From Klebsiella pneumoniae (lineage in GTDB: Bacteria; Pseudomonadota; Gammaproteobacteria; Burkholderiales; UBA3065), in contig CAMDGF010000014.1 in assembly GCA_945897555.1 (NCBI GenBank), forward strand, positions 1 to 37,876: a stretch of DNA of 37,876 nucleotides, in the 5' to 3' direction. This document shows, in pieces, positions 15,539 through 19,147 of the stretch. Numbering within the stretch: position 1 is the first letter of the stretch; each line of letters opens with the position of its first letter. The translations under genes and the position numbers were made by a program. The notes under the pieces were generated by a model. It made no database searches and had not been told where the DNA came from. It was given only the letters and a program-made list of their open reading frames with translations.

Positions 15539-16525
15539 ATGGTTAGTTTCTTTGGCAAGTCTTCTGCACCGCCAGCCCCGGGGGCTGTCGACACCGCGCC
15601 GGCGCCCGCCACGGGCGGTTGGCGCGACCGCCTGCGCGCTGGACTGAGCCGCGTCAGCGGTGCGCTGGGCGAAGCGCTCGGCAGTGTGGTGCATGGCCGC
15701 AGGACGATCGACAGCACGGTCTACGACGACCTCGAAGCCGCGCTGTTGGCCGCCGATGTCGGCATCGGTGCCACGCAGGACTTGCTCGAGGCGCTGCGCA
15801 AGACGGTGGCGCGCGATGCGCTGCAGGACGTCGACGCGCTGCGCGAAGCGCTGCGCGACGCTCTGCTGCAGCGCCTGCAGGTGCTCGAGCAGCCACTCGA
15901 CACCTCGGCGCACCGGCCCTTCATCGTCATGGTCGCCGGTGTCAACGGCAGCGGCAAGACCACCTCCATCGGCAAGTTGGCACGCTGGTTCCAGACCCAA
16001 GGCAAAAAGCCCTTGCTGGCTGCAGGCGACACCTTTCGCGCCGCCGCGCGCGAGCAGCTCAAGATCTGGGGCCAGCGCAACGGCATCGACGTCATCGCGC
16101 AGGACAGTGGCGACCCGGCCGCAGTGGTGTTCGACGCCATCAACGCCGGCCGGGCGCGCGGCGCTGACGTGGTGATCGCCGACACCGCCGGCCGCCTGCC
16201 GACGCAGCTGCACCTGATGGACGAACTGGCCAAGGTGCGGCGCGTCATCGCCAAAGCTGACGCCAGCGGGCCGCACGAGGTGCTGCTGGTGATCGATGCC
16301 CACATCGGCCAGAACTCGCTGGCGCAGATCGCCGCTTTCGATAAAGCGGTCGGCGTGACCGGACTGGTGGTGACCAAGCTCGATGGCACCGCCAAGGCTG
16401 GCGTCCTCGTGGCCCTGGCCTGCAGCGCACGACCGCTGCCCGTGCGCTTCATCGGTGTCGGCGAAGGGCTGGACGATCTGCAACCCTTCTCCGCGCGGGA
16501 TTTTGTCGAGGCCCTCCTGCCATGA
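15539..16525 (+). CDS. ftsY: Signal recognition particle receptor FtsY
   Basis: 328-aa SRP-family GTPase that docks ribosome-SRP complexes at the membrane translocon. A short Ala/Pro-rich N-terminal region is followed by the N domain (about 45-115) and the G domain with GVNGSGKTT (P-loop), [40 protein letters not shown] and [14 protein letters not shown]. Two motif departures stand out: DAHIGQN where DATTGQN-like sequence is usual, and [10 protein letters not shown] instead of [10 protein letters not shown]. The stop codon overlaps the ftsE start by 4 bp, the classic ftsYEX arrangement. Confidence 0.97.
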
Positions 16526-17211
16526 TCAGCCTGCAAGGCGTGAGCAAGCGCTATCCCGGTGGGAGCGATGTGCTGGCCGGCGTCGACCTGCAGATCGCCG
16601 GTGGAGAGATGGTGGTGCTACTGGGTCCGTCGGGTGCCGGCAAGAGCACGCTGCTCAAACTGATGGGCGGCATCGAGGGGCCTTCGGCCGGCGCCGTGGA
16701 GATCTTTGGCCAGGACACGGCGCGGCTCGACCCCGGCCGGCTGGCCTTGGTGCGCCAACAGATCGGCCTCATCTTCGAAGATTTCAAGCTGCTCAGCGAC
16801 CGCAGCGCGCTGGAGAATGTGGTCTTGCCGCTCGAGATCGCCGGCTATGCCCTCGCCGAGGCACGGCGCCGAGGCCGCGCCGCACTCGAAAAGGTGGGGC
16901 TCGGCGCGCGCGAGAAGATGCGGCCGGCAAGCTTGTCGGGTGGCGAACAGCAACGTCTGTGCATCGCTCGCGCCGTGGTGTCGCGGCCGGCGCTGATCCT
17001 CGCCGACGAGCCCACCGGAAACCTCGACGCCGGGCAGGCAGCAAGCATCGCCGATATGCTGCGCGCCTTTCATGCGGTGGGCACCACCGTGGTGGTGGCC
17101 ACCCACGATCCGGTGTTCCGCGACCGCCTGCAGGGCCGTGCGCTACACGTCGAGGGCGGCGCCGTGCGCGGCATCGAAACCTCGATCGCTCGCCGTGGGG
17201 AAGTGCGATGA
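16522..17211 (+). CDS. ftsE: Cell-division ATP-binding protein FtsE
   Basis: 229-aa ABC ATPase that works with FtsX at the septum; ATP hydrolysis is relayed through FtsX to periplasmic activators of cell-wall hydrolases. Walker [18 protein letters not shown]-loop region around [11 protein letters not shown], signature [14 protein letters not shown], Walker [14 protein letters not shown] and the H-loop VVATHD are all intact. Length is normal. It overlaps ftsY by 4 bp and ftsX by 4 bp (ATGA), so the three are translationally coupled. Confidence 0.97.
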
Positions 17212-18125
17212 GTGCGCCAGGGGTGTGGCTGCGTGCTTATGGCAACGCCGGCCTGCAACTTCTGCGCGAGCCGGTGGCGAGCCTGTTCAACCTGGTGGCA
17301 CTGGCCTGCGCGTCGGGTTTGGCACTCGCTGCTGTCGTCTGGCTGGGCGAGACCAGCCTTGGCATCGGTGACACCGAAGGCCGCAACCTGTCGCCCCAGG
17401 TCACGCTGGTGCTGCGTGGCAATGTCACCGAAGCCTCGCGGGAGGCGCTCGAGAAGACCCTGCGCAGCGCGCCGGGCGTGAGGGATGTCCGCTTCATCGG
17501 CCGCGATGCTGCGCTACGGCGTCTGGCCAAGGACCTCGGCGATGACCGGCTGCTCGATGGGCTTGGCAAGAACCCACTGCCGGACGCACTGGTGGTCACG
17601 CTGGCATCAGGCCTCTCTGAGGCCCGTACCAACGCGCTGGTGACTGGATGGCGCTCGCGGGTCGAAGTGGAGGAGATTCTCGCCGACCGTGAACTGACCG
17701 AGCGTCTGCAACGCATTGCCGGGACCGCCCGGCTGCTTGCGCAAGCGATCGTTGCGCTGCTGCTCGTGAGTGGTGCGGTGGTGGTTTTCAACACCATACG
17801 CCTGCAGTTGGCTGGTCGGCAGCAGGAGATCGAACTGATCCGCCTGCTCGGCGCGCCAGCGGCTTTTGTGCGGCGTCCCTTCGTCGCCCGCGGCACCTTG
17901 CTGGCGTTCACCGGGGCCGCGCTTGGCTGGGGCCTGGCCGAGACCATGGTGCACCTCGTCCACGGCTGGATCGGGCCGCTCACCGCTGCTTGGACACTGC
18001 CCCCACCGCCGGCCGCAGTGCCCCTGCCGACCGGCCTTGGTGCCCTGCTGGTGGCGTTGCTACTGGGCTGGCTCACCGCCTGGCTGGGTGTGGCGCGCCA
18101 TCTGTCGGCGACCGACCGCCGCTAG
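17208..18125 (+). CDS. ftsX: Cell-division protein FtsX
   Basis: 305-aa inner-membrane partner of FtsE. A first transmembrane segment at about 24-45 (LFNLVALACASGLALAAVVW) is followed by a periplasmic domain of about 120 residues (QVTLVLRGNVTEASREALEK onward) and three C-terminal membrane segments, the type-VII ABC topology expected of FtsX. The periplasmic loop is the part that in E. coli contacts EnvC, which is encoded at 29791-31062 here. The start ATG overlaps the ftsE stop. A spacer of about 150 bp separates it from rpoH. Confidence 0.94.
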   Translation: MSAPGVWLRAYGNAGLQLLREPVASLFNLVALACASGLALAAVVWLGETSLGIGDTEGRNLSPQVTLVLRGNVTEASREALEKTLRSAPGVRDVRFIGRDAALRRLAKDLGDDRLLDGLGKNPLPDALVVTLASGLSEARTNALVTGWRSRVEVEEILADRELTERLQRIAGTARLLAQAIVALLLVSGAVVVFNTIRLQLAGRQQEIELIRLLGAPAAFVRRPFVARGTLLAFTGAALGWGLAETMVHLVHGWIGPLTAAWTLPPPPAAVPLPTGLGALLVALLLGWLTAWLGVARHLSATDRR

Positions 18126-18194
18126 CAGTCTTCGCACCGGAGCTGATCGTAGTCAGGGGTCACGGAACCCGCAGCGTGTAGGCTCGTCCATGAC

Positions 18195-18221
18195 TTAGCA
18201 CTCGCCCCCAGAGAGTGCTAA
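18195..18221. promoter_or_regulatory. CIRCE element (HrcA operator) upstream of rpoH
   Basis: The arms TTAGCACTC (18195-18203) and GAGTGCTAA (18213-18221) are separated by exactly 9 bases, a perfect match to the CIRCE consensus bound by the heat-shock repressor HrcA. It lies 60 bp before the rpoH ATG and 70 bp after the ftsX stop. A promoter-like pair TTAGCA (18195-18200) and TAAATT (18219-18224) with an 18-bp spacer would fall on the arms themselves, so HrcA could block polymerase directly. No hrcA gene is in the window. Confidence 0.95.
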
Positions 18222-18280
18222 ATTCTCAATCTGGATGCGCCGCCTGCCGGTCGCCCCCACGAGTACGCAAGGAGATGCCG

Positions 18281-19147
18281 ATGCAAGCCACTCTGCCGAT
18301 GCCGATGCCCGGTGCGCTGGGTAGTTTCGACGCTTATGTAGCGACGGTGAACCACCTACCGATGCTGAGCGCAGATGACGAGACCCGCCTGGCGCGTGCC
18401 TTGCGCGACCACAACGATCTGGAAGCGGCCCGCCAACTGGTGTTGTCGCACCTGCGCGTGGTGGTCAGCGTAGCTCGCAACTACGCGGGCTACGGCCTGC
18501 CACAACCCGACCTTGTGCAAGAGGGCAACATCGGCCTGATGAAGGCGGTGCGCCGGTTCGATCCCGAGCGCGGCGTACGTCTGGTGTCGTTCGCTTTGCA
18601 CTGGATCCGCGCCGAGATGCATGAATACATCCTTCGCAACTGGCGCCTGGTCAAAGTGGCCACCACTAAGGCGCAGCGCAAGTTGTTCTTCAATCTGCGC
18701 AGCCTCAAGACCGACCACCGCGCAGTCACCGGTGCCGACGCCGAAATCATTGCGCAGCAGCTGGGAGTGCGCCCCGAGGACGTCCTAGACATGGACCTGC
18801 GGCTGAGCGGTGGTGATGTCCAGCTCGACCCCAGCGACGACGCCGACGATACGCTGCACGCGCCGATCCGCTACCTGGCCGACGACTCCAGCAGCCCGGA
18901 TGCGCTGATCGACACCGCCCGCCGCGACCACTTGGCTGGTGAGGGCCTGCAGGGCGCGCTCGCCACCCTCGATGCGCGGAGCCGGCGCATCGTAGAGTCC
19001 CGTTGGCTGAGCGACGACGGCGGCCCGACACTGCATGCGCTCGCCGCCGAGTACGGCGTATCAGCCGAACGCATCCGTCAGATCGAGGTGCAGGCACTCA
19101 AGCGGCTGCGCACCGCGCTCGAGGCGCAGGGCAACGCCCCAGACTGA
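18281..19147 (+). CDS. rpoH: RNA polymerase heat-shock sigma factor (sigma-32)
   Basis: 288-aa group-3 sigma factor directing transcription of chaperone and protease genes. Region 2 is clear (LPQPDLVQEGNIGLMKAVRRFDPERG, LVSFALHWIRAEMHEYILRNWRLVK, read in parts), followed by the RpoH box QRKLFFNLRSLK that distinguishes sigma-32 from other sigma factors. Region 4.2 (TLHALAAEYGVSAERIRQIEVQALKRLR) closes the protein. The ATG at 18281 is chosen because AAGGAG (18269-18274) sits 6 bases upstream; an ATG at 18275 would have no spacing. It is preceded by a perfect CIRCE element and is convergent with the SCO1-like gene, with 4 bp between stops. Confidence 0.97.
   Translation: MQATLPMPMPGALGSFDAYVATVNHLPMLSADDETRLARALRDHNDLEAARQLVLSHLRVVVSVARNYAGYGLPQPDLVQEGNIGLMKAVRRFDPERGVRLVSFALHWIRAEMHEYILRNWRLVKVATTKAQRKLFFNLRSLKTDHRAVTGADAEIIAQQLGVRPEDVLDMDLRLSGGDVQLDPSDDADDTLHAPIRYLADDSSSPDALIDTARRDHLAGEGLQGALATLDARSRRIVESRWLSDDGGPTLHALAAEYGVSAERIRQIEVQALKRLRTALEAQGNAPD

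Follow-up and report, generated by a model that had tools for sequence, protein, structure and literature searches.

A CIRCE element conserved before rpoH predicts HrcA control of the heat-shock sigma factor across a bacterial order

In E. coli, rpoH, which encodes the heat-shock sigma factor sigma-32, is controlled chiefly by translation and protein stability. The repressor HrcA, whose operator is the CIRCE dyad, is modulated by GroE in Bacillus subtilis and Chlamydia (as stated in PMC9959188), and RpoH and HrcA of Agrobacterium are described as having independent roles, to judge by the title of a paper in the reference list of PMC11764788. A CIRCE at rpoH itself was predicted in 2004 in Geobacter sulfurreducens, where a perfect copy lies at −51 of the gene (PMC545781, Table 8). 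Among its references is a 2003 survey by Permina and Gelfand of beta-, gamma- and epsilonproteobacteria, in which rpoH of betaproteobacteria may already appear. In Bordetella bronchiseptica, the sigma-E-type factor SigE transcribes rpoH (fam) in vitro (PMC3490749). Here we compare with these systems the rpoH locus of a window of 37,876 nucleotides, the whole stretch of DNA that was analysed, and the corresponding loci of related genomes.

The CIRCE dyad at rpoH and its association with hrcA

The product of the window's rpoH gene exceeds the TIGR02392 equivalog cut-off of 323.1 bits (Table 1). Upstream of it lies a 27 bp dyad reading TTAGCACTC GCCCCCAGA GAGTGCTAA, a full match to the CIRCE consensus; in shuffled windows no such match is expected. 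The initial annotation had reported a mismatch-free TTAGCACTC-N9-GAGTGCTAA element 60 bp before rpoH; its coordinates and perfect match were verified, and the gap from the element to the ATG at 18281 measured 59 bp.

Table 1. Coordinates of rpoH, its neighbours and the predicted regulatory elements in the window
Feature	Coordinates	Strand	Basis and details
ftsE-like ATP-binding gene	16522..17211	+	named by gene order, no library search
ftsX-like gene	17208..18125	+	directly 5' of rpoH; gene order ftsE-ftsX-rpoH and sequence reading, no library search
Sigma-E-type promoter (inferred)	18164..18191	+	GGAACCC 18164-18170, N16, TCCAT 18187-18191; just 5' of CIRCE
CIRCE, predicted HrcA operator	18195..18221	.	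perfect dyad; one of the genome's two sites
Sigma-70 promoter (inferred)	18195..18224	+	−35 TTAGCA 18195-18200, spacer 18, extended −10 TGC-TAAATT, hexamer 18219-18224
rpoH ribosome-binding site	18269..18274	+	AAGGAG, 7 bp before ATG; read from sequence
rpoH, sigma-32 heat-shock sigma factor, 288 aa	18281..19147	+	TIGR02392, 379.8 bits

The source genome of the window's contig (1.81 Mb, 98.5% complete) has a single hrcA gene (PF01628, 207 bits; TIGR00331, 319 bits against a cut-off of 197), flanked by ORFs that read as ferrochelatase and NAD kinase. A search of the whole genome with up to three mismatches returned exactly two CIRCE sites, the one at rpoH and a second, perfect one before groES-groEL, and none near hrcA itself; the presence of hrcA accords with the initial reading. 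Each of four other genomes of the genus likewise has one hrcA and a pair of CIRCE sites, again before rpoH and groESL. Across the five congeneric genomes, the arms of both elements are constant, bar one mismatch at one groESL site, and the N9 spacer varies freely, which is the pattern expected from selection on a protein-binding dyad. We regard the window's CIRCE as very likely to be a genuine HrcA operator on the rpoH transcription start region, a judgement held jointly with that on the whole mechanism proposed below.

To cover the order, 120 genomes of at least 90% completeness were drawn evenly; 118 gave an RpoH match, and upstream DNA was read at 118 rpoH loci of 117 genomes, with G161 excluded (rpoH at a contig edge) and G128 contributing two rpoH genes. 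Searching hrcA in the same 120 genomes revealed a CIRCE with at most four mismatches at 106/106 rpoH loci of hrcA-positive genomes (no mismatch in 44, one in 39, two in 19, three or four in 4) versus 0/12 loci of genomes without intact hrcA, the gene being absent in 11 cases and reduced to a stop-containing fragment in G164. Conservation in relatives, on which the initial annotation had let its interpretation depend, therefore holds for the genus (5/5 genomes) and for all hrcA-positive genomes with a readable locus. The Fisher p of 1e-16 for this association is inflated and overstates independence, because the sampled genomes share kinship. Losses of hrcA are spread over seven families, three of which (f3, f23 and f33) contain both states, with concordant CIRCE status. 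In most of the hrcA-positive genomes examined, the rpoH element is one of only two CIRCE sites; L086 (G003) is a groESL site and was left out of the 106-locus rpoH counts.

When RpoH relatives were sought in named genomes, all betaproteobacterial loci with upstream sequence to examine proved to have CIRCE before rpoH, as did many gammaproteobacteria; the Enterobacterales, Vibrio and Haemophilus sampled had neither CIRCE before rpoH nor hrcA. Across the mixed set, hrcA was present in 38/42 genomes with CIRCE versus 7/37 without. The four CIRCE-positive genomes lacking an hrcA match (L030, L056, L061 and L083) are all MAGs and are not taken as true exceptions, because such assemblies may be incomplete, and two of the seven hrcA-positive, CIRCE-negative genomes (L036 and L055) have a variant dyad. 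Judged from these genome sequences, CIRCE on rpoH is the rule in the order, occurs also in many gammaproteobacteria and is not peculiar to the source genome.

Several individual loci depart from this pattern or elaborate on it. In G115 (L153), where hrcA has been lost, the dyad has decayed to five mismatches (ATAGCACAC-N9-CGGTGATAA); its congeners G158 and G198 retain both hrcA and CIRCE. The G115 locus still has the sigma-E −35 and the sigma-70 −10 elements described below, a snapshot of a circuit under dismantling. At rpoH of the Xanthomonas group and similar genomes (L047, 2425-2451; L072, 2421-2447; L036, ~2420-2450; L055), hrcA is present and the dyad is a symmetric CIRCE variant, TTAGCAGTC-N9-GACTGCTAA or near, which suggests that HrcA has changed in step with its operator. 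In L137 (G192), in which hrcA was undetected, another perfect dyad, CAGGCACT-N9-AGTGCCTG, occupies the place of CIRCE 70-140 bases before rpoH, with the sigma-E promoter kept; this dyad may be a CIRCE in decay or may serve a different regulator as its operator. Pseudoalteromonas (L070 / G077) has a perfect CIRCE at rpoH and a weak sole HrcA match (E 1.2e-11), and seems to possess a divergent HrcA that retains the canonical operator. Finally, each of the two rpoH genes of G128 (L181 and L189) has its own CIRCE and GGAACTT promoter.

Promoter elements at the dyad

The initial annotation had also noted promoter-like hexamers on the CIRCE arms (Table 1), an observation that gained backing when the 106 rpoH sites were aligned on the dyad and compared with 21 groESL sites as control. 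At rpoH, the 5' arm supplies a −35 hexamer of the form TTRGCA (TTAGCA or TTGGCA), and 18 bp on, the 3' arm begins a −10 hexamer of the TAANNT type (TAAAAT, TAATAT, TAACAT, TAGAAT or similar). The final T of this −10 (T29) is found at 104/106 rpoH loci versus 1/21 groESL loci. Position A2 of the left arm has changed to G, towards TTGACA, in 37/106 rpoH loci, and its mirror in the right arm, T24, which is the first T of the −10, is invariant in all 106; this unequal drift of the arms fits the prediction of a sigma-70 promoter in the dyad. A generic sigma-70 scan of 18050-18300 called no promoter, because the −35 and −10 are each weak, and it was the cross-genome alignment that decided. At groESL the dyad is instead placed after a sigma-32 promoter, with CTTGA at −29 in 15/21 sites versus 1/106 at rpoH.

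A second, sigma-E-type promoter is predicted to overlap or adjoin the dyad. In the window, GGAACCC-N16-TCCAT taken alone is borderline, being equalled or beaten in 5% of shuffles; throughout the genus (5/5 genomes), GGAACC followed at identical spacing by TCCAA, TCGAA or TCCAT lies directly 5' of CIRCE. Across the order, GGAACTT is most frequent 16 bp 5' of the dyad, with TCTNA following after N16; in this common register, the TC of the sigma-E −10 forms the end of the 5' arm and its TNA the start of the spacer. The spacer T and A of TCTNA occur jointly in 57/106 rpoH sites versus 0/21 groESL sites, and their occurrence is correlated with that of the −35 (p 1e-4). A sigma-E score independent of CIRCE exceeded shuffles at 76/106 rpoH loci, in 38/44 families, and at 0/21 groESL sites, the latter set being the fairer control because shuffling destroys the dyad. 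On the strength of these alignments, the operator is predicted to overlap or abut a promoter at rpoH.

The register is not uniform. In family f48 it is shifted, with the sigma-E −10 further inside the spacer. In f16 (L203/L204; G144, G185) GGGAACC, a possible sigma-E −35, stands within the CIRCE spacer, with TCTAT or TCCTG ~16-17 bp on, a borderline match that possibly represents a candidate sigma-E promoter which has switched sides relative to the dyad. The source genome encodes RpoE (TIGR02939, 333.5 bits; cut-off 236), and the ORFs after rpoE read as rseA, rseB and mucD(-like), named by reading without a search. Several hrcA-less enterobacteria retain the sigma-E promoter without CIRCE.

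Proposed control of rpoH and competing explanations

Computation established the site itself, the way it depends on hrcA from genome to genome, and a promoter geometry that is conserved. On this basis we propose the following mechanism. In the unstressed cell, HrcA on the dyad would bar RNA polymerase from rpoH by occluding the sigma-70 promoter, which has the dyad arms as its −35 and −10, as well as the adjoining sigma-E promoter; in the window's genus, it would block the latter just past the start. Once misfolded proteins occupy GroE, HrcA would become inactive and rpoH and groESL would be derepressed together, upon which newly made sigma-32 would drive chaperone genes, groESL among them. 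Envelope stress, signalled via sigma-E, would raise rpoH only within the limit set by HrcA. If HrcA excludes polymerase from both rpoH promoters and titration of GroE relieves this exclusion, HrcA would therefore stand above sigma-32.

We consider this mechanism as a whole, from the HrcA operator on rpoH through occlusion of both promoters to GroE-linked relief, to be highly probable, with binding, repression, feedback and hierarchy as its predicted parts. The hierarchy of HrcA and sigma-32 proposed in the initial annotation is thereby supported, HrcA repression of rpoH itself being predicted from the sequence. Points against the mechanism are the dominance of translation and protein stability in E. 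coli, the borderline score of the window's own sigma-E motif, and the independent roles described for RpoH and HrcA in Agrobacterium. With distinctly less assurance, we lean towards a broader reading: throughout the order and in some gammaproteobacteria, HrcA may gate the sigma-E promoter of rpoH in addition to a basal promoter, such that the cytoplasmic folding state reported by GroE and HrcA would decide whether envelope stress triggers the sigma-32 response, and loss of HrcA, for example in enterobacteria, may have left P3 alone.

The competing explanation that survives best, which we find possible though doubtful, holds that HrcA does bind and repress, yet does no more than turn down a basal sigma-70 promoter, the RpoH level being set mainly by translation and degradation and the hierarchy being minor. 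Transcriptional control of rpoH could be a minor term because in E. coli translation and protein stability play the main part, and the dyad coincides with the sigma-70 promoter, possibly its sole target. Against this, the operator is found in every hrcA-positive genome of the order that was examined, mostly as one of two sites, and such retention argues for a sizeable benefit. Moreover, the rpoH leader and early coding region fold no better than shuffles (z −0.61), although a thermosensor may be present all the same, and an Rfam search returned no thermosensor and no other RNA family.

In some groE transcripts, CIRCE can act as an RNA hairpin, and the rpoH dyad might likewise serve mainly as a hairpin in the 5' leader that tunes mRNA stability up or down. 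On folding, its RNA gives a 9-bp hairpin, and for the window's genus, transcription from the sigma-E promoter would start near the beginning of the dyad, so that the RNA would include it. Yet the −10 of the sigma-70 promoter uses the 3' arm, making an RNA role unlikely because the sigma-70 transcript would begin past the dyad; in the common register, the sigma-E transcript would start within the dyad and the hairpin would not form. CIRCE presence also tracks hrcA perfectly, which an RNA role would not predict, and we give this explanation very little credence. Least probable of all is that the dyad is a relic or chance likeness and HrcA acts on groESL alone: our literature search turned up no experiment in the group that proves HrcA action at rpoH, but shuffled windows are not expected to contain the element, its arms are perfect in five congeners while the spacer drifts, and it is decayed or absent after hrcA loss.

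Should HrcA indeed repress rpoH through both promoters, two classical heat-shock systems would operate in series order-wide, HrcA above sigma-32, unlike the separate scheme usually taught, and one short element would integrate housekeeping transcription, envelope stress and chaperonin load. The overlap of CIRCE with two promoter types leads to a clear, testable prediction about the onset of the heat-shock response. The natural losses of hrcA make the dismantling of the circuit testable as well and hint at the origin of the E. coli rpoH promoter.

Comparison with known systems

Geobacter sulfurreducens resembles the present case in having an rpoH CIRCE alongside an hrcA gene and a CIRCE on groESL (PMC545781). 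It belongs to another class, however, and its CIRCE sites extend to hrcA-grpE-dnaKJ, as opposed to groESL and rpoH only in the source genome; there the rpoH site was a lone prediction, and its overlap with a promoter was not analysed (PMC545781). Bordetella bronchiseptica shares with the present case a sigma-E-type factor acting on a betaproteobacterial rpoH, but HrcA is unmentioned in PMC3490749. CIRCE before rpoH was thus already known as a prediction; what we did not find described, in a partial search of the literature on CIRCE with HrcA or rpoE and rpoH that returned no description of sigma-E overlap, are its lineage-wide dependence on hrcA and the overlap of promoter and operator.

With the established repression of groESL, the locus has repressor family and operator in common, and the source genome carries a groESL CIRCE too. 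The arrangement differs: the groESL dyad follows a sigma-32 promoter, whereas at rpoH it appears to be merged with a sigma-70 promoter and linked to one of the sigma-E type. The sigma-E-dependent P3 promoter of E. coli rpoH shares with the motif predicted across the order the −35, the −10 and the 16-bp spacing, as seen in Lelliottia (GGAACTTGTGGATAAAATCACGGTCTGA), whose enterobacterial sigma-E promoter before rpoH we take to be equivalent to P3. The sampled enterobacteria, however, have neither hrcA nor CIRCE, whereas here the corresponding promoter is predicted to overlap or abut an HrcA operator.
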